Below, in pieces: positions 2,072 through 63,096 of a stretch of 63,684 nt of DNA. The position numbers were made by a program, and so were the translations under genes. The notes under the pieces are model-generated. The model did no database searches and was not told the DNA's origin. It saw only the letters and a list, made by a program, of their open reading frames with translations. The stretch covers positions 1 to 63,684 of the forward strand of contig JAGWUF010000007.1 of NCBI GenBank assembly GCA_028868545.1, in the 5' to 3' direction. The stretch comes from Lysobacteraceae bacterium (GTDB lineage: Bacteria > Pseudomonadota > Gammaproteobacteria > Xanthomonadales > Xanthomonadaceae). How positions within the stretch are numbered: position 1 is the first letter of the stretch; each line of letters starts with the position of its first letter.

Positions 2072-2167
2072 ATGCTTGCGCTGCACTGCACAACGTGCGA
2101 GCATTCGCGGCTCATGCATCTGCATCTCGCCACGCGCCACGCTGACTCCGCCCGGATGGCCTCCGGC

Positions 2168-2215
2168 ATGACTTCGCGTGCGCGCCGACCGGAACCCTAC
2201 TCTTTCGCTGGGTAA
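2168..2215 (+). CDS. Candidate arginine leader peptide
   Basis: A 15-codon ORF reading [15 protein letters not shown]. Three arginine codons (CGT, CGC, CGA) lie within four codons at positions 4-7. It ends 29 bases before a perfect rho-independent terminator that stands in front of argF'. The second half of the ORF lies inside a hairpin that can be exchanged for an antiterminator (next entry). A purine-rich GGATGG about 8 bases before the ATG could act as a weak ribosome site. The arrangement follows the classical amino-acid attenuation plan. The ORF is short and three arginines are fewer than in the best-known leaders, so this is a candidate only. Confidence 0.5.
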
Positions 2216-2254
2216 ACCGGAGCGCGTTCCTGCGTCAAATTCCGAAAACCCGGC
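2189..2254 (+). promoter_or_regulatory. Candidate arginine attenuator: mutually exclusive hairpins
   Basis: Three pairings compete by eye. Strand 1:2 pairs CCGG (2189-2192) with CCGG (2217-2220) and ACCC (2194-2197) with GGGT (2210-2213). Strand 2:3 pairs GCTGGGT (2207-2213) with ACCCGGC (2248-2254), seven pairs including one G-U. Strand 3:4 is the terminator at 2245-2273. A ribosome stalled on the Arg codons (2177-2188) would cover strand 1, free strand 2 to pair with strand 3 and so block the terminator. This is the expected logic for raising arginine-gene expression when charged tRNA-Arg is scarce. Seen: the complementarity and the order. Inferred: the function. Confidence 0.5.
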
Positions 2255-2273
2255 CCCGCAGGCCGGGTTTTTT
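2245..2273 (+). terminator. Rho-independent terminator before argF'
   Basis: Perfect 11-bp stem (AAAACCCGGCC with GGCCGGGTTTT), 5-base loop CCGCA, then a T run. It lies between the small exported-protein gene and argF', with its end 32 bases before the argF' ATG. It may simply end upstream transcripts, but its position after an Arg-containing leader ORF suggests a conditional role. Confidence 0.85.
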
Positions 2274-2305: not shown

Positions 2306-3310
2306 ATGAAGCATTTCCTCAACACCCAGGACTGCAGCCGCGCCGAACTCGACGCCCTGTTGGCGCAGGCCGCCGCGTTCAAGCGCGACAAGCTGGGCGA
2401 CGCGCTGAAAGGGCGCTCGATCGCGCTGGTGTTCTTCAACCCGTCGATGCGCACCCGCACCAGCTTCGAGCTGGGCGCGTTCCAGCTGGGCGGCCACGCC
2501 ATCGTGCTGCAGCCCGGCAAGGACGCGTGGCCGATCGAGTTCGAGCTCGGCACGGTGATGGACGGCGATACCGAGGAGCACATCGCCGAGGTGGCGCGGG
2601 TGCTGGCGCGCTATGTCGACCTGATCGGCGTGCGCGCGTTCCCGAAGTTCGTCGATTGGGCGCAGGATCGAGAAGACCGCGTACTCAAGGCGTTCGCGAA
2701 GTACTCGACGGTGCCGGTCATCAACATGGAGACCATCACCCATCCCTGCCAGGAGCTGGCGCATGCGCTGGCATTGCAGGAGCACTTCGGCACGTCCGAT
2801 TTGCGCGGCAAGAAATACGTGCTGACCTGGACCTATCACCCCAAGCCGCTCAACACCGCGGTGGCCAATTCCGCGCTGACGATTGCCACGCGCATGGGCA
2901 TGGACGTGACCCTGCTGTGCCCGACCGAGCAATACGTGCTGGACGAGCGTTACATGGGCTGGGCGCGTGACAACGTGGCCGAAAGCGGCGGTTCGCTGAC
3001 GGTCAGCCACGACATCGAAAGCGCCTATGCCGGTGCCGACGTGGTGTACGCCAAAAGCTGGGGCGCGCTGCCGTTCTTCGGCAACTGGGGCCCGGAAAAA
3101 CCCATCCGCGACCAGTACCAGCATTTCATCGTGGATGAAGCCAAGATGGCGCTGACCAACAACGGCGTGTTCTCGCACTGCCTGCCGCTGCGCCGCAACG
3201 TGAAAGCCACCGACGCAGTAATGGATTCGCCGCGCTGCATCGCCATCGACGAAGCCGAAAACCGCCTGCACGTGCAGAAAGCCATCATGGCCGCGCTGCT
3301 TGCCCGCTGA
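2306..3310 (+). CDS. argF': N-acetylornithine carbamoyltransferase
   Basis: A 334-residue transcarbamylase that makes N-acetylcitrulline from carbamoyl phosphate and N-acetylornithine, a variant of the arginine pathway known from Xanthomonas. The carbamoyl-phosphate signature [11 protein letters not shown] is at residues 47-57, followed by the family-typical [15 protein letters not shown] and [12 protein letters not shown] segments. [17 protein letters not shown] and [15 protein letters not shown] complete the second-substrate site. These inserts, and the adjacent deacetylase, separate it from ordinary ornithine carbamoyltransferase. It is the first structural gene of the arginine operon and stands directly behind the candidate attenuator. 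A GAG about 10 bases before the ATG is a weak ribosome site. Confidence 0.95.
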
Positions 3311-3362: not shown

Positions 3363-4568
3363 ATGACCACTTCCAATGATTCCCGCGACATCGTGCTGGC
3401 CTTTTCCGGCGGCCTCGACACCAGCTTCTGCGTTCCTTATCTGAAAGAGCAGGGCTGGAACGTGCACACCGTGTTCGCCGATACCGGCGGCGTCAGCGCA
3501 GAAGAGCGCGCCACCATCGAGGCACGTGCGGCCGAGCTGGGGGTGGCCTCGCACGTCACCATCGACGGCGGCGCGGCGCTGTGGAACGACTTCGTCAAGC
3601 CCTTCGTCTGGGCCGGCGAGGGCTACCAGGGCCAGTATCCGCTGCTGGTGTCTGACCGCTATCTGATCGTCGATGCTTCGCTGGCGCGCGCCGCCGAGCT
3701 GGGCACCAATGCGATCGCCCACGGCTGCACCGGCATGGGCAATGACCAGGTGCGTTTCGACCTGGCAGTGAAGTCGCAGGGCAGTTACCGCATCGTTGCG
3801 CCGATCCGCGAGATCCAGAAAGAACACACCCAGACGCGTGCCTATGAGCAGGCTTATCTGGAAGCGCGCGGCTTCGGCGTGCGCGCCAAGCAGAAGGCCT
3901 ACACGATCAACGAGAACCTGCTGGGCGTCACCATGTCCGGTGGCGAAATCGACAGCTGGGAAGCGCCGGGCGAGGGTGCGCGCGGCTGGTGTGCGCGCCG
4001 CGAGCAATGGCCGGCCGAGGCGCTGGAAGTGACTCTGCGTTTTGCAGGTGGCGTTGCGGTGGCGCTGGACGGCACCGACATGCCGGGTGAAAAAATCCTG
4101 GCCAAACTCAACACCATGTTCGCTCAATACGGCGTGGGCCGTGGCATGTATACCGGTGACACCACCATTGGTTTGAAGGGCCGCATCGTGTTCGAAGCAC
4201 CGGGCTTGAGCGCCTTGCTCACCGCCCATCGCGCGCTGGAAGAAGCGGTGCTGTCCAAACAACAAAACCGCTTCAAACCGAATGTCGCGCGGCAGTGGGT
4301 GGAGCTGGTGTACGAGGGCTTCTACCACGACCCGCTGAAGGCGGACCTGGAGGCGTTCCTTGCGTCCTCGCAGGCACAGGTCAATGGCGAAGTGACCCTG
4401 CGCAGCAACGGCGGTCGCGTGGACGCGGTGGCGATCCACTCACCGCACATCCTCAATGCCAAGGGTGCCACCTATGCACAGTCGGCCGACTGGGGCGTGG
4501 AGGAGGCCGAAGGCTTCATCAAGCTGTTCGGCATGAGCAGCACGCTGTGGGCGGAAGTGAACCGCTGA
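3363..4568 (+). CDS. argG: Argininosuccinate synthase
   Basis: A 401-residue ATP-dependent ligase. In most bacteria it joins citrulline and aspartate; here citrulline is made by deacetylation of acetylcitrulline by the next gene product. The PP-loop ATP motif AFSGGLDTS is near residues 13-21. Further landmarks are [31 protein letters not shown] and, near the C-terminus, [17 protein letters not shown]. The frame is open upstream through the C-rich palindrome, but the ATG at 3363, about 11 bases behind GGAG, is the start that fits the family. The argininosuccinate product is cleaved by ArgH later in the operon. Confidence 0.95.
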
Positions 4569-4720: not shown

Positions 4721-5806
4721 ATGCTCACCGACGTCCTTCATCACCTCGAAAGATTGGTGTCCTTCGATACCCGCAACCCGCCGCGTCGGATCGGCACCGG
4801 CGGGATCTTCGACTACATTCGCGCGCAGCTTCCGGGCTTCCGTTGCGAGGTCAGCGACCACGGCGACGGCGCGGTCTCGCTGCTGGCGGTGCGCGGCACG
4901 CCTGGCCGCGTGTTCAATGTGCATCTGGATACCGTGCCGTCGTCGGAGGCGTGGAGCGCCGACCCGCTCAAGTTGCGGGTGACGCACGACCGCGCCATCG
5001 GTCTGGGTGCGTGTGACATCAAAGGTGCCGCAGCGGGGTTGATTGCCGCTGCCAACGTCACCCGCGGCGATGCCGCCTTCCTGTTTTCCACCGATGAAGA
5101 GGCCAACGACCCGCGTTGCATTGCAGAGTTTTTGGGGCGCGAGCATGGCTTTTCCGAGGCTATCATCGCCGAGCCCACGCGCTGCGAAGCGGTGCTGGCG
5201 CATCGCGGGATCAGCTCGGTCTTCCTGAAGTTCAAGGGCGAGGCCGGGCATGCATCGAGCGCGAATGCGCTGCAGGCCAGCGCCCTGCATCAGGCGATGC
5301 GCTGGGGCAGCCGCGCACTGGATCTGGTGGAGGCCGAAGCGGCCAACGCATTCGGCGGGCTGCAAGGGCTGCGCTTCAACATCGGCAAGGTGGAAGGTGG
5401 CATCAAGGCGAACGTGATCGCACCCAGCGCCGAGGTACGCTTCAACTTCCGCCCGCTGCCTTCGCACGACATCGATGCTCTGCATGCGCGGTTTGCAGCG
5501 TGCGCGGCAGTGGGCGTGCTGGAGCGTTTCGAGGAAACCTTCCGCGGGCCGTCGTTGCCGGCCGGCGACGTGGTCTATGCCGAACAGCGCCGGCAGGCCG
5601 CGCAGGCGCTGGCGGAAAGCCTGCAACTGCCGATCGGCAACGCCGTCGATTTCTGGACCGAAGCCTCGCTGTTCTCGCAGGCCGGTCTCACCGCCTTCGT
5701 GTACGGCCCCGGCGACATTGCACAGGCCCACACCGCCGACGAATGGGTGGCGCTGGAGCAGTTGCAGCGCTACGCCGAGTCCATCACCCGCATCCTTGGG
5801 AACTGA
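4721..5806 (+). CDS. argE': N-acetylcitrulline deacetylase (M20 family)
   Basis: A 361-residue M20-family metallohydrolase. In Xanthomonas the equivalent enzyme removes acetate from N-acetylcitrulline, the product of ArgF', giving citrulline for ArgG. Metal-site residues are visible: His68 and Asp70 in NVHLDTVP, Asp99 in GACDIKGA, Glu126-Glu127 in STDEEAND, Glu about 153 in AEPTRCE and a C-terminal His in AQAHTADEW. The ATG at 4721 follows the palindromic repeat; an ATG at 4708 is in another frame. The gene is followed six bases later by argB. Sequence alone does not exclude activity on acetylornithine, but the argF' context favours acetylcitrulline. Confidence 0.88.
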   Translation: MLTDVLHHLERLVSFDTRNPPRRIGTGGIFDYIRAQLPGFRCEVSDHGDGAVSLLAVRGTPGRVFNVHLDTVPSSEAWSADPLKLRVTHDRAIGLGACDIKGAAAGLIAAANVTRGDAAFLFSTDEEANDPRCIAEFLGREHGFSEAIIAEPTRCEAVLAHRGISSVFLKFKGEAGHASSANALQASALHQAMRWGSRALDLVEAEAANAFGGLQGLRFNIGKVEGGIKANVIAPSAEVRFNFRPLPSHDIDALHARFAACAAVGVLERFEETFRGPSLPAGDVVYAEQRRQAAQALAESLQLPIGNAVDFWTEASLFSQAGLTAFVYGPGDIAQAHTADEWVALEQLQRYAESITRILGN

Positions 5807-5812
5807 TCCAAC

Positions 5813-7159
5813 GTGACCCCGATCCTCTCCCCGCAGGCCGTCCACGACCCGCAAACCCGCCAGACCATCGTGCGGCTGTTGTCCAGCATGGGCAGCGCGA
5901 AGGAAATCTCGCAGTACCTGAAGCGTTTCTCCCAGCTCGACGCGGCGCGCTTCGCCGTGGTCAAGGTGGGTGGCGCGGTGCTGCGCGACGACCTCGACGC
6001 GCTGGTGTCCTCGCTGGCCTTCCTGCAGGACGTGGGCCTGACCCCCATCGTCATCCACGGCGCCGGCCCGCAGCTGGACGCGGAACTGGCCGCCGCCGGC
6101 ATCGAGAAGAAAACCATCGACGGCCTGCGCGTCACCTCGCCGGAAGCGCTGGCGATCGTGCGCCGCGTCTTCCATGCGCAGAACCTGAAGCTGGTCGAGG
6201 CGCTGCAGGCGGCGGATGCGCGCGCGACCAGTATTGTCTCCGGCGTGTTCGAAGCCGATTACATGGACCGCGAGCGCTACGGGCTGGTGGGCGAAGTGAA
6301 GCGCGTCGACCTGGCGCCGATCCAGGCCAGCCTGCAGTCCGGCTCGATCCCGGTCATTGCCTCGCTGGGCGAAACCGTGGGCGGGCAGATCCTCAACGTC
6401 AACGCGGATTTCGCCGCCAACGAGCTGGTGCAGGTGCTGCAGCCGTACAAGATCGTGTTCCTGACCGGCACCGGCGGGTTGCTGGACGCCGATGGCCAGG
6501 TCATCGATTCGATCAACCTGTCCACCGAGTACGAGCACCTGATGCAGCAGCCGTGGATCGAAGGCGGCATGCGGGTGAAGATCGCGCAGATCAAGGATCT
6601 GCTGGACGGGCTGCCGCAGGCCTCGTCGGTGTCGATCACCCGGCCCGACGAGCTGGCGAAAGAATTGTTCACGCACAAAGGGTCAGGCACCTTGGTGCGG
6701 CGCGGTGAGCGCGTGCTGGAAGGCGCATCGTGGGACGATTTCGATTTGCTGCGCCTGCGCGGGCTGATCGACTCGGCGTTCGGGCGCAAGCTGCTGCCGG
6801 ATTACTTCGAGACGACCAAGCTGCATCGCGCCTACGTCAGCGAGAACTACCGCGCCGCGGTCATCCTCACGCAGGAGGATGCCGGCGTGTATCTGGACAA
6901 GTTCGCGGTGCTGGACGATGCGCAGGGCGAAGGCCTGGGCCGCGCGGTGTGGCTGGTGATGCGCGAGCAGAATCCGGCGCTGTTCTGGCGCTCGCGCCAC
7001 GGCAACCCGGTCAACGCGTTCTACGACGCCGAATCCGATGGCTGCATCAAGCAGGAGAAGTGGAAGGTGTACTGGTATGGCGAAGCGGGCTTCCCGCTGA
7101 TCGAGCGCTACGTGCAACTGTGCGCGCAGCGGCGGGCGACGCTGGAGGAACCGAAGTGA
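5813..7159 (+). CDS. argB: Bifunctional N-acetylglutamate kinase-synthase
   Basis: A 448-residue two-domain protein. Residues about 1-290 form an amino-acid kinase domain ([30 protein letters not shown]), which phosphorylates N-acetylglutamate. Residues about 300-448 form a GNAT acetyltransferase-type domain ([38 protein letters not shown]), which supplies the acetylglutamate synthase activity. Such NAGS-K fusions are known from Xanthomonas and carry the first two steps of arginine synthesis in one chain, usually with arginine feedback inhibition. The start is GTG at 5813; no better ATG exists. The stop overlaps the GTG start of argC, so translation is probably coupled. Confidence 0.93.
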
Positions 7160-8103
7160 GCAGGATTCGGGTGGGTTTGGTCGGCGCGCGCGGCTACACC
7201 GGCGCGGAGCTGATCCGCCTGTTCGCCGCGCATCCGCGCTTCGAGCTGGCGTTCGTGACCTCGCGCGAGCTGGATGGCCAGCGCGTGGCCGACCACAACC
7301 CCGGTTTCGCCGGTGCGCTGCGCTACAGCTCGCCCGACTACCGCGACCTGCCGGGCTTCGGCGCCGACGCGGTGGTGCTGGCGCTGCCCAACGGCAAGGC
7401 CGCGCACATCGTCCAGCAGTTCGACGAGGCTGGCGCCGATCCGGTCATCGTGGATCTGTCCGCCGACTATCGCTTCGACCCGTCGTGGTACTACGGCCTG
7501 CCGGAGCTGACCCGCACGCGCTATGCCGGACAGCGGCGCATCAGCAATCCCGGCTGCTACGCCACCGCGATGCAGCTGGCGATCGCGCCGATGGCGAACG
7601 TGCTGGACGGGCCGGTGCAGTGCTTCGGCGTCAGCGGTTATTCCGGTGCCGGCACCACGCCTTCCGACAAGAACAACGTGGAACTGCTGCGCGACAACCT
7701 GATGCCGTACGCGCTGACCGGCCACGTGCATGAGCGCGAGGTGTCGAAGCAGCTGGGCCATCCGGTGGAGTTCATGCCGCACGTCGCGCCGCATTTTCGC
7801 GGCATCACGATGACCGCCAACCTGCACTTGTCGATCGCGTTCGAGCGCGAGGAAGTGCTGGCGCGTTATCGCGGCCGCTATGCGGACGAGCCGCTGGTGC
7901 GGGTGCAGGACGATGCGCCATGGGTGTCGAACATCGCCGGCAGGCATCACGTCGAGATCGGCGGTTTCACCTTGTCCGGCGACGGCAGACGGCTGGTGGT
8001 GGTGGCCACCGAGGACAACCTGCTGAAAGGTGCGGCGACGCAGGCGCTGCAGAATCTCAACCTTGCGTTCGGGCTGGAGGAACTGGGCGGGATTCCGCTT
8101 TGA
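7156..8103 (+). CDS. argC: N-acetyl-gamma-glutamyl-phosphate reductase
   Basis: A 315-residue NADPH-dependent dehydrogenase making N-acetylglutamate semialdehyde. The N-terminal dinucleotide-binding loop is [15 protein letters not shown]. The catalytic cysteine is Cys134 in SNPGCYAT, and [10 protein letters not shown] and HVAPHFRG are the further family blocks. The GTG start at 7156 overlaps the argB stop (GTGA); the frame is open well upstream, but that part is a shadow of argB. The semialdehyde must then be transaminated by an ArgD-type enzyme, which is not in this window. Confidence 0.94.
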
Positions 8104-8233: not shown

Positions 8234-9529
8234 ATGTCCGATTTGTTATGGCAAAAACCCGGCGTGGCGGTGGACGCAAGCATCCAGGCTTTTCTTGCCG
8301 GCGATGATGTGCTGCTGGACCGCGAATTCTTCCTGCATGACATCCAGGCCAGCGCAGCGCATGCCGAGGGCTTGCAGCATATCGGCATCCTGTCGGCTGA
8401 CGAGTTGACTGGCCTGAAGCGCGAGCTGGCAGTGCTGGCCGAGGATTTCCGCAGCGGCGTTTTCGTCCTCGACGAGCGCTTCGAGGACGGCCACTCCGCC
8501 ATCGAGGCACGGCTGACAGAACGACTGGGCGATGCCGGTCGCAAGATCCACACCGGCCGCAGCCGCAACGACCAGGTGCTGGTGGCCACCCGGCTGTGGC
8601 TGAAGGAAAAACTGGCGCGGGTGGCGCAGCTCTCGCGCGACATTGCAAAGATTGCACTCGACCGTGCCGAAGCGGAGAAGCGCCTGCCGCTTCCCGGCTA
8701 CACCCACATCCAGCGTGCGGTGGTGTCTTCCGCCGGCATGTGGTGGGCGGGCTGGGCCGAGGCCTTCATCGACAACGCCGTGCGCGCCATCGACACGCTC
8801 AAGCTGGTGGACTGCAACCCGCTGGGCACGGCCGCCGGGTATGGCGTGAATTTGAAGCTCGATCGCGAACACACCACCGCCGCACTGGGCTTCGCGCGCA
8901 TACAGGTCAGCCCGATCTACGCCCAGCTGTCGCGCGGCAAGTTCGAGCTGGCGGCGCTGGAAGCATTGGGAGGTGCGACGCTGGACCTGCGCCGCATCGC
9001 CTGGGATCTGTCGCTGTTCACCAGCGCCGAGTTCGGCTTCGTCGCGCTGCCGGCGCAGTACACCACCGGCAGTTCAATCATGCCGAACAAGCGCAACCCC
9101 GACGTGATCGAGCTGATGCGCGCCACCCACGCCAGCGTGGCGGCGGCACGCACCGAGATCGAGCAATTGCTGTCGCTGCCGTCCGGCTACCACCGCGACC
9201 TGCAGAGCAGCAAGGGCGCGATCTTCCACGGCTTCGGCCGCGGCCTGGCCGCGCTGGAACTGCTGCCGGCGCTGCTGGCCAACCTCGACTGGCGCGAGGA
9301 TCGCCTGCGCGCGGCGATCGACTCCGGCATGTACGCCACCGACGTGGCGGTGGAGGCGGCGATCGCCGGGGTGCCGTTCCGCGAGGCTTACAAGGCCGCC
9401 GCCGCTGCCGCCGACAGCGCCGGGCAGGGCCGCACGCCGGAAGGCTCGCTGGCCGCACGCACATCACCGGGTGCGGCAGCGGATCTGCGGTTGGATGTGC
9501 TGCGCGCGCGTTGGGAGGCGTTGGCCTGA
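8234..9529 (+). CDS. argH: Argininosuccinate lyase
   Basis: A 431-residue member of the fumarase/aspartase superfamily that splits argininosuccinate into arginine and fumarate, the last step of the pathway. Blocks seen are [29 protein letters not shown] and the signature [15 protein letters not shown] with the catalytic serine loop. It is shorter than the E. coli enzyme (about 457 residues) but contains all signature regions. GGAG about 9 bases before the ATG serves as ribosome site. The proB start follows three bases after the stop. Confidence 0.95.
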
Positions 9530-9532
9530 GCC

Positions 9533-10663
9533 ATGAGCGCTTTCGCACCGCAACCCCTTCCCGATTGGAAACGCGCGGTGCTGAAAGTGGGCAGCAGCCT
9601 GCTGGCCGCCGACGGTGGCGGACTGAGCCCGCGTTTCGCGCTGCAGCTGGCGCAGTTCGTGCTGGCCAGCCGGCAGGCCGGACGCGAGATGGTGATCGTC
9701 TCTTCCGGGGCGGTGGCCGCTGGCCGCGCCTTGCTGGCCAACGACAGGGACGCCGCCCCGGCGATCGCCGCCAAGCAGGCACTGGCGGCACTGGGGCAGG
9801 CGCAACTGATCGCGCTGTGGCAGCGGTTTTTCGAAGCGCCGGTGGCGCAGGTGCTGTTGACCCACGATGACCTGCGCAACCGCCGCCGCTATCTCAATGC
9901 CCGCGCCGCCTTGCTGGAATTGCTGCGGGTGGGCGCAGTGCCGGTGGTGAACGAAAACGACACCGTGGCAGTGGATGAATTGAAGCTGGGCGACAACGAC
10001 AACCTGGCCGCCGCCGTGGCCTCGCTGGTGGACGCCGACCTGCTGCTGATCGCCACCGACATCGATGGCCTCTACAGCGGCCATCCCGGGCATGACCCGG
10101 AGGCTCGCCCCATCACCAAGGTGGAGGCCATCACCCCGGAAGTGCTGGCGATGGCCGGCGATGCCGGCGCGCTGGGCACCGGCGGCATGCGTACCAAATT
10201 GGAAGCCGCCGCGAAAGCGGCCGCAGCCGGCATCCACACGGCGCTGTTCTGTGGCCGCGATGCCGCCACCGTGGCGGCGCTGGGGCAGGGCGTCTTGCAC
10301 GGCACGCTGGTCACTGCGCAGGGCAGCCGCCTGAGCGCCCGCAAGCAATGGCTGCGGCATGCGCCGGCCTCCGGCACGGTGGTGATTGATGCGGGTGCCG
10401 AAGCGGCGCTGCGGCGTGGTGCCTCGCTGTTGCCGGGCGGTGTGCAAACGGTGGCGGGGGAGTTTCGGCGCGGTGATGTCGTGGCCGTGCACACGGCGCA
10501 AGGCGCGCTATTGGCACGCGGTTTGATGCAATACAACGCTCGGGATGCTGCGCGTATCGCTGGCCATCACAGCCGCGAGATCGACGTTCTCCTGGGCTTT
10601 CATTACGACGAAGCGATGATCCATCGCGACGATTTGGTCTTGTTGCAACGGGAGGGTGCATGA
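9533..10663 (+). CDS. proB: Glutamate 5-kinase
   Basis: A 376-residue enzyme that phosphorylates glutamate in the first step of proline synthesis. The amino-acid kinase domain fills residues about 10-260 ([50 protein letters not shown]). A C-terminal PUA domain follows from about residue 285. It starts three bases after argH and its stop overlaps the proA start, so the proline genes are part of the same transcription unit as the arginine genes. The coupling is sensible because both pathways start from glutamate. Confidence 0.95.
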
Positions 10664-11928
10664 GCGGATACGTGCGGGCCTTGGCGCAGGCGGCGCGTGC
10701 GGCGCAGTTGCAGATTGCCGCCCTCAGCGGCGCCCAGCGGCAGGCGTTGCTGGAGGCGATGGCCACGCAATTGCTGGCCGGGCAAGAGGCCATCCTTGCC
10801 GCCAATGCGCAGGATGTGGCGCGTGCGGCGACTGCGGGTGCCAACAAGGCCACTCTGGATCGGTTGTTGCTGGATGCCGGTCGTGTGCAGGGCATGGCCG
10901 CTGCACTGCGCGAGGTGGCGGCGCAAACCGACCCGCTGGGCGAAGTCACCCGCCGCGACACCCGCCCCAATGGCGTGGTGGTGGAGCGCCAACGCATCCC
11001 GCTGGGCTTGGTGGCGATGATCTTCGAGGCCCGCCCGAACGTCACCGCCGAAGCGGCCGCCTTGTGCCTGAAGGCCGGCAATGCCGTGCTGCTGCGCGGC
11101 GGCACCGAGGCGGCGGCCAGCAATGCCGCGATCGCCGTCTGCCTGCACGCCGCGCTGCGCGATGCCGGGTTGCCGGAAGCGGCAGTGTCACTGGTCGCGG
11201 ACACCGCGCGCGAACATGTGCTGGAACTGCTGCAACTCAGCGACTTGATCGACTTAGCCATCCCGCGCGGCGGCGAAAGCCTGATCCGCTTCGTCGCCGA
11301 GCACGCACGGGTGCCGGTCATCAAGCACTACAAGGGCGTCTGCCATTTGTACGTGGATCGCGCTGCCGATATCGAAAAAGCAGTCGCACTGTTGCTGGAC
11401 GGCAAGGCCTCGCGCCCCGGGGTCTGCAACGCGCTGGAAACCCTGCTGGTGCATCGCGACATCGCCTCGGCGTTCCTGCCGCGTGCGCTGGCGGCGCTGA
11501 AAAATCGCGGTGTGGAGGTGCGCGGCGATGCCGCCGTGCGTGCGTTCGATGCCGGTTTGGCCGAGGCAAGTGCAGCGGACTTCGATGCCGAATTCCTCGA
11601 CCTCATCATCGCCGTGCGCGTGGTCGACTCGATCGAGGACGCCATCGCCCACATCCGCCGCCACACCTCCGACCATACCGAAGTGATCGTCACCGAAGAT
11701 GCGCTGGCGGCGGACACCTTCGTGCGTGCCATCCGCAGTTCGGCGGTGATGGTCAACGCCAGCTCGCGCTTCAACGACGGCGGCCAGCTCGGGCTGGGCG
11801 CGGAAATCGGCATTTCCACCACCCGCCTGCACGCCTACGGCCCGATGGGGGTGGAAGCGCTGACCATCGAACGCTTCGTGGTGCGCGGCGCGGGGCAGGT
11901 GCGGCACCCCGAGTTGTTGCGACCTTGA
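10660..11928 (+). CDS. proA: Gamma-glutamyl phosphate reductase
   Basis: A 422-residue aldehyde-dehydrogenase-fold enzyme that reduces glutamyl 5-phosphate, the product of ProB, to glutamate semialdehyde. Landmarks are [17 protein letters not shown], the nucleotide-binding GNAVLLRGG, the catalytic Cys256 in [11 protein letters not shown] and the C-terminal [15 protein letters not shown]. The ATG overlaps the proB stop codon (ATGA). It is the last gene of the operon; no convincing T-tailed terminator is seen in the 152 bases that follow. Confidence 0.96.
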
Positions 11929-52513: not shown

Positions 52514-52590
<77 letters not shown>

Positions 52591-63003: not shown

Positions 63004-63096
63004 CCGAGCAGCCGCGCCTAGCCCGACGGGGCGAAAACGCCGGACACCCTACGGCGCTGGCGCGGCTTCCTTACAGGGGAGTGAGGGTGTGCACAC

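Follow-up and report, generated by a model that had tools for sequence, protein, structure and literature searches.

The arginine operon and its upstream region

The DNA analyzed here, a stretch of 63,684 nucleotides from a Lysobacteraceae bacterium that we refer to as the window, carries near its left end a row of arg and pro genes headed by argF', the gene for N-acetylornithine carbamoyltransferase. The region in front of argF' contains a probable promoter, a short open reading frame (ORF) with clustered Arg codons and several RNA segments that are predicted to pair with one another (Table 1). The ORF and the pairing segments had led the initial annotation to propose an arginine attenuator. 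The operon behind the leader makes the amino acid that the clustered leader codons specify, as is expected of an attenuator.

Table 1. Positions in the window of the leader elements and of the genes behind them
Feature	Position	Strand	Basis
-35 element TTGCGC	2076..2081	+	promoter pattern kept among relatives
-10 element GAGCAT, extended by preceding TGC	2099..2104	+	promoter pattern kept among relatives
Probable RNA 5' end	2112	+	homology with sRNA-Xoo5 of X. oryzae (alignment of RF02242 position 1)
Match to Rfam RF02242 (Xoo5)	2112..2237	+	83.7 bits, gathering score 50
Leader ORF, 33 codons, probably near-leaderless	2114..2215	+	frame open back to ATG 2114
Internal in-frame ORF of 15 codons (initial annotation)	2168..2215	+	window sequence
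Control codons CGT GCG CGC CGA (Arg Ala Arg Arg)	2177..2188	+	codon variation among relatives
1:2 (protector) hairpin, forming the inner portion of a longer hairpin (~2169-2237)	2189..2220	+	folds; arm permutations
Arm 2, 5' arm of antiterminator, extending over the final two sense codons into the first base of the stop codon	2207..2213	+	folds; arm permutations
Arm 3, 3' arm of antiterminator, also part of the terminator 5' arm	2248..2254	+	folds; arm permutations
Intrinsic terminator (arms 3 and 4) with T run	2244..2273	+	folds, terminator detection
argF', N-acetylornithine carbamoyltransferase, first gene of the operon	2306..3310	+	NF003384, 635 bits, cut-off 288
argG	3363-4568	+	NCBIfam
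argE	4721-5806	+	NCBIfam
Acetylglutamate kinase, kinase-synthase type	5834-7159	+	NCBIfam
argC	7156-8103	+	NCBIfam
argH	8234-9529	+	NCBIfam
proB	9533-10663	+	NCBIfam
proA	10660-11928	+	NCBIfam

The upstream regions of carA and argD in the source genome (L305 and L307) gave no Rfam match, and inspection by eye of the carA region revealed no similar leader. A similar leader was therefore rejected at both genes, at argD on the basis of the Rfam search alone.

The leader reading frame and its promoter

A 15-codon ORF with three Arg codons among codons 4 to 7 had been described initially. The sequence of positions 2168 to 2215 is ATG ACT TCG CGT GCG CGC CGA CCG GAA CCC TAC TCT TTC GCT GGG TAA, which places the Arg residues at codons 4, 6 and 7. 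This frame is thus present, but its true start probably lies at ATG 2114 rather than at 2168, giving 33 codons with five Arg residues; the ATGs at 2156 and 2168 are internal and in frame.

The probable promoter in front of this ORF consists of TTGCGC at 2076, a spacer of 17 nt and GAGCAT at 2099, followed after 9 nt by ATG 2114. A general promoter scan of the window leader retrieved no sigma-70 consensus site. The corresponding pattern, defined as TTG, 16 to 18 nt, xAxxxT, 5 to 10 nt and an ATG in frame with the Arg codons, was present in 76 of 80 loci from named genomes, where base shuffles gave an expectation of 0.6; these loci are the best 80 of a longer list and hence close relatives. The spacer measured 17 nt in 70 and 18 nt in 6 of the matching loci, and TGC preceded the -10 element in 70 of the 76.

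Position 1 of RF02242, which represents the 5' end determined by RACE for Xoo5 of Xanthomonas oryzae, aligns to 2112, two nucleotides before ATG 2114, so that the message would be leaderless or have an untranslated leader of 2 nt. We conclude that the leader message is probably near-leaderless, with its 5' end at about 2112. A transcription start downstream of 2273, which the initial annotation had named as counterevidence, does not apply to the Xanthomonas homologue.

Predicted RNA structures of the window leader

The fold of positions 2168 to 2273 had a z score of -4.2, and none of 200 shuffles was as good. The proposed 1:2 hairpin is present in the minimum-energy fold (z = -2.8; 1 of 200 shuffles as good), where it forms the inner part of the longer hairpin. 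The seven-pair antiterminator joins GCTGGGT (2207-2213) to ACCCGGC (2248-2254) with one G-U pair, and the terminator (2244-2272), which had been called perfect, possesses a stem of 12 pairs followed by the T run. The mutual exclusion proposed for these structures is reproduced by the folds of the window. The 1:2 hairpin prevailed in the naked leader that lacks the 3' arm of the terminator, whereas the antiterminator formed, at -20.9 kcal/mol and with 0 of 200 shuffles as good, when the RNA upstream of 2202 was removed and the 3' arm of the terminator was unmade. The terminator formed in static folds of the RNA that a ribosome on the stop codon would leave free downstream.

Folding better than shuffled sequences, together with the conservation of a stretch that precedes the Arg codons, would also be compatible with hairpins that bind a protein or a small molecule directly, as an unrecognized riboswitch or protein-binding leader in which the ORF is incidental. 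However, no other Rfam family, riboswitches and T-boxes included, exceeded its own cut-off in the leader region, and neither the sequence nor the fold upstream of the Arg codons is common to the families described below, which have in common the Arg ORF and the complementarity of the arms. We consider direct binding very improbable.

Conservation of the leader among relatives

Three clustered Arg codons followed by a terminator in a single GC-rich sequence are, by themselves, weak evidence. In fact, the Arg cluster of the window leader was equalled by approximately 23 of 60 shuffles (a fraction of 0.38), as would be the case for an ordinary terminator that happens to follow a spurious GC-rich ORF. 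What raises the observation above chance is not this one sequence but its conservation, since frame, codons, promoter and arms are kept in many genera, and a chance origin is consequently extremely unlikely.

An ORF encoding TSRARR was found upstream and in frame in all 80 of the loci from named genomes mentioned above. The 53 distinct blocks that these contain keep the T, S, R, A and R residues while third bases vary (ACC/ACG/ACT, CGT/CGC, GCG/GCC/GCT and CGC/CGT). In this comparison, the synonymous third-base changes within a kept frame are compatible with translation of the leader.

To cover the order, we sampled 150 distinct upstream regions of argF' from 12 families (f1 to f12). An intrinsic terminator was detected in 127 of them. 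At least three Arg within six codons preceded the terminator in 125 of these 127 regions, compared with 39.4 expected from 60 dinucleotide shuffles of each; at least four Arg within six codons were observed in 52, compared with 8.7 expected from dinucleotide shuffles. An Arg-rich ORF ending near the antiterminator arm was present in 124 of the 127 regions with a terminator, which corresponds to 124 of the 150 overall. Leader, terminator and antiterminator arm were called automatically in 10 of the 12 families, namely, in 54 of 61 regions of f1, 3 of 3 of f2, 7 of 8 of f3, 3 of 3 of f4, 2 of 2 of f6, 26 of 27 of f7, 14 of 14 of f8, 10 of 20 of f9, 1 of 1 of f10 and 4 of 4 of f12, with no call in the single region of f5 or the six of f11. 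The conserved short Arg ORF for which the initial annotation had suggested looking is therefore present both in the close relatives and across the families sampled.

The 23 regions that have no terminator by our rule comprise five in which TSRARR is visible by eye and the T run is interrupted or short, one in which the RF02242 match lies about 360 nt upstream, beyond the stretch used, two that are cut by the end of a contig, and regions from f5 (one), f9 (eight) and f11 (six). Three regions (L030, L237 and L239) possess a terminator but failed the leader test. Five loci were excluded before counting, one with a match that starts inside a gene and four (L102, L105, L106 and L109) with no argF' start. 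In some loci, among them L003, L015, L032 and L084, the automated procedure picked an incorrect ORF.

The leader peptides differ among families. The core peptide is strongly conserved in f1 and extends to f2, f3 and f12, whereas f4, f6, f7, f8, f9 and f10 have another peptide, of which only the Arg runs are retained; this is illustrated by the RRLRRP types of f7, the VVVRRRRP and VVVRRLRR types of f8 and PRRRR of f6. Within f1, the TSRARR core is more constant than expected if only the Arg codons matter, which may be due to RNA pairing, common descent or an effect of the peptide. The last of these would suit a nascent-peptide sensor, in which the binding of free arginine (or ornithine) arrests the ribosome on the leader peptide in the manner of TnaC or the fungal arginine attenuator peptide, since the conservation of the core goes beyond the needs of codon counting. 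However, a TnaC-type peptide would be expected to be conserved wherever the system is found, and here the families differ apart from the Arg runs. Furthermore, the C-terminal AG tracks the RNA arm; where the stop codon comes earlier (e.g., L085, L090 and L104), the peptide ending is lost and arm 2, or a substitute for it, stays. The over-use of the rare codon CGA, described below, is likewise a property of codons and not of the peptide. A peptide sensor is thus quite improbable.

Outside the order, a distant relative of argF' (39 to 43% identity) was detected in 5 of 369 genomes of the class, five further matches being located within the order. No leader was seen by eye upstream of these five genes, and in the one case tested (L301) the preceding gene is argD.

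As a separate observation, in loci of f8 (L225, L228, L232 and L240 to L252) the first leader codons (ACAACAAC-like) look by eye as if they could pair with the GTTGTTGT-like Val codons that directly precede the Arg run, and this complementarity perhaps provides an additional pause or protector hairpin.

Co-variation and geometry of the RNA arms

The commonest pairing of arm 2 with arm 3 is GCTGGGT:ACCCAGC, and GCCGGGT:ACCCGGC also occurs, as do pairs of unrelated sequence, namely, TGCCAGGTT:AACCTGGCA and TCTTTGGTT:GGCCAAAGA. Locus by locus, this pairing reached a p value of 0.05 in 70 of 126 cases and of 0.01 in 39 (base shuffles). We then exchanged partners among loci, with arm 2 defined by the stop codon alone and permutations that ignore relatedness. 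True partners paired at a mean of -15.1 kcal/mol, compared with -14.1 kcal/mol for permuted ones (0 of 5000 permutations as good), and the 37 loci that do not belong to the commonest class showed the difference as well (-14.6 versus -12.8; 0 of 5000). An analogous result was obtained for the 1:2 pairing in 132 of 134 distinct sequences, the other two having no arm 2 by the rule: -14.0 versus -13.0 for permuted partners (0 of 5000, again with relatedness ignored), with 40% of non-cognate partners, on average, pairing as well as the true one. Co-variation of this stem is exemplified by CCGGA:TCCGG versus CCGTT:AACGG. The covarying stems sought in relatives are hence present, as true partners of the arms surpass permuted ones.

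The geometry is in line with the proposed stalling at the Arg codons. Arm 2 starts at a median distance of 18 nt past the last clustered Arg codon and, in 122 of 124 loci, between -24 and +12 relative to the stop codon. Given the generally known size of the ribosome footprint, a ribosome at the stop codon is predicted to mask arm 2. Folds that simulate a stalled ribosome contained the pairing of arm 2 with arm 3 in 101 of 124 loci, and those with the ribosome at the stop codon contained the terminator in 122 of 124.

In static folds of the naked RNA without the 3' arm of the terminator, which included 60 nt upstream of arm 2, arm 2 paired with arm 3 in 88 of 124 loci and with upstream sequence in 35, and neither pairing was present in one. 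A shorter test, starting at the last Arg codon and thereby excluding most of arm 1, gave 114 for the arm 2:arm 3 pairing versus 8. The protector role assigned to the 1:2 hairpin is thus a tentative prediction. The hairpin co-varies and wins in the window, but it is favored statically in just 35 of 124 loci, so that kinetic help or the order of co-transcriptional folding would be needed in most of them. Of all elements of the model, the protector hairpin is the weakest, and it is less certain than the antiterminator.

Codon choice in the leader

The third Arg codon of the core is CGA in all 53 distinct blocks, whereas synonymous changes occur at the first two. CGA represents 3 of the 225 Arg codons in the arg and pro genes of the window. 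Among the clustered Arg codons of the leaders, 201 of 204 at TSRARR loci and 221 of 229 at other loci belong to the set CGU, CGC and CGA, whereas CGG, AGG and AGA are nearly absent. For the non-TSRARR loci with an argF' sequence, CGA accounts for 38 of 86 clustered leader Arg codons compared with 22 of 391 in argF', and the three codons together account for 82 of 86 compared with 240 of 391 (Fisher tests, which ignore relatedness).

ARAGORN was run on loci that together contain 42 of the genome's 46 tRNA matches; it identified tRNA-Arg with the anticodons ACG, CCG, CCT and TCT but no tRNA-Arg with TCG. Anticodon ACG, modified to ICG, reads CGU, CGC and, weakly, CGA. The use of CGU and CGC, the over-use of CGA and the near absence of CGG, AGG and AGA suggest that the sensor would be the charging of a single isoacceptor, tRNA-Arg(ACG). 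It has been argued that the sensitivity of an attenuator requires a particular choice among synonymous codons (PMC1183508, accessible part of the text), and the restricted set of leader Arg codons fits this argument.

Relationship to the Xoo5 RNA family

The leader corresponds to an RNA that has already been catalogued. Rfam RF02242, "Xanthomonadaceae sRNA Xoo5" (type "Gene; sRNA"), matches the window over model positions 1 to 124 with a score above its gathering threshold. Among 119 relatives, 65 had a match with an E value of 0.001 or better, and 38 had one above the cut-off; all 38 of the latter lie upstream of argF'. In three Xanthomonas loci (L127, L141 and L148), the match ends about 150 nt before argF'. 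Additional Xoo5 copies in front of other genes were considered and rejected, because the four candidates, the same four loci excluded above for having no argF' start, are sub-cut-off matches inside unrelated frames.

In the accessible part of the X. oryzae study, the 5' end of Xoo5 is defined by RACE and the cloned 3' end is at 124 nt; Northern blots are reported to show two species during early growth, of about 130 and 100 nt, and later the shorter one alone, and the RNA is interpreted as an sRNA (PMC3039613). The terms "argF" and "arginine" do not occur in the main text of that article (PMC3039613). Three Xanthomonas loci have 158 to 159 nt between the predicted 5' end and the T run. The published bands are shorter than this predicted terminated RNA, and the cloned 3' end falls short of the predicted terminator (PMC3039613, as far as the text is accessible), so that processing must be assumed if the leader is an attenuator.

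The bands, the RACE end, the change with growth phase and the Rfam type would agree with a trans-acting small RNA whose position before argF' is incidental. Against this stand the location of every match above the cut-off, the conserved Arg ORF that Xoo5 contains and the pairing of its end with the terminator before argF'. That Xoo5 is a trans-acting RNA placed there by coincidence is thus very unlikely, and a reading of the region as an sRNA gene alone was rejected on account of those 38 positions; a terminated leader could additionally act in trans. Xoo5 and the window leader are the same RNA, which differs in its description: it is catalogued as an sRNA gene, and the model ends before the terminator and omits both the ORF and the neighboring argF'. 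The RF02242 entry may be suited to re-annotation as a cis-regulatory leader.

Distribution of ArgR

Arginine synthesis is a textbook case of control by a repressor. ArgR control concerns the same pathway and presumably serves the same purpose as the leader, but it relies on a DNA-binding repressor, and a search for ArgR (PF01316) in the source genome (96% complete) found none. The same search was positive in 9 of 14 control genomes and in 6 of 119 relatives, all of family f11. None of the six argF' upstream regions of f11 has a leader; four of the corresponding genomes were among those searched for ArgR. The preceding gene is argD in the one region tested.

The 10 of 20 argF' regions of f9 that lack a leader provide another case. 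ArgR was not found in the three leaderless f9 genomes searched (G043, G096 and G109), so that some lineages seem to have neither regulator. The single region of f5 also lacks a leader, and ArgR was not found there where tested. In one leaderless f9 locus (L233), the gene before argF' encodes a GGDEF diguanylate cyclase.

A model for the control of the operon

Taken together, the conserved ORF, terminator and antiterminator support the interpretation given initially: the leader is very probably a ribosome-mediated transcription attenuator that senses charged Arg-tRNA and controls the operon led by argF', and a response to arginine is predicted. According to this model, transcription would start at about 2112, and the leader ORF would be read as a near-leaderless message. 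When Arg-tRNA is short, the ribosome would slow at the CGT, CGC and CGA codons around 2177 to 2188 and cover the 5' side of the 1:2 hairpin; with this hairpin blocked, arm 2 would pair with arm 3, the terminator would be prevented and the operon would be transcribed. When Arg-tRNA is plentiful, the ribosome would reach the stop codon that overlaps arm 2, mask this arm and allow the terminator to end transcription. An untranslated leader would terminate too, provided that the 1:2 hairpin forms first.

Leader-peptide attenuators are established for the trp, his, leu, ilv, thr and phe operons of Proteobacteria, and, to our knowledge, arginine is not among the amino acids usually listed for this mechanism. 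With these systems the argF' leader shares codons for the end product in the leader ORF, predicted mutually exclusive 1:2, 2:3 and 3:4 pairings, a terminator before the first structural gene and a stop codon placed such that a finishing ribosome could mask arm 2. It differs in the amino acid, in the probably near-leaderless message and in the restriction of the Arg codons to the set of one isoacceptor, and in most loci the static folds do not have the 1:2 hairpin as their minimum. A short upstream ORF with a response to arginine also exists in fungi, where it encodes the arginine attenuator peptide; this eukaryotic system acts by arginine-induced arrest, on translation or mRNA decay.

The exclusive pairings and the masking of arm 2 by a finishing ribosome are those of the published attenuator model (PMC1183508, accessible part). 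The closest arginine case found in the literature searched is the leader of Salmonella speF, in which consecutive Arg codons in the short ORF orf34 cause ribosome pausing that reports arginine supply (PMC6386406). Unlike the argF' leader, it operates through Rho-dependent termination and RNase G decay and controls an ornithine decarboxylase, and the two leaders are not homologous (accessible part of PMC6386406).

In the open-access literature, to which our search extended, we found no description of leader-peptide attenuation by arginine in front of an arg operon, in agreement with the initial statement that no such case was known for this operon family. The region itself is already in Rfam as an sRNA family. 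Attenuation is an established mechanism; what appears undescribed in the searchable literature is its use for arginine, the near-leaderless message and the connection with RF02242.

At the level of the order that includes Xanthomonas, Stenotrophomonas, Lysobacter and Thermomonas, we lean towards a scenario in which ArgR gave way to one ancient leaderless attenuator, which senses how far tRNA-Arg(ACG) is charged by way of its weakest codon, CGA, and of which the Xoo5 family is the terminated product. If the attenuator interpretation is right, it would identify how arginine synthesis is likely controlled in a large order that includes Xanthomonas, Stenotrophomonas and Lysobacter, an orphan sRNA family would become a cis-regulator with a testable signal, and the leaders would form a natural series in which one mechanism was kept while peptide, arms and codons changed.

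Two further features were recorded elsewhere in the window. A tRNA-Pro with the anticodon CGG is located at 52517-52590 on the minus strand, and a match to the int-alpA RNA (Rfam RF02996, 65.9 bits), which may be the sign of an integrative element, lies near the right end, at 63011-63079 on the plus strand.
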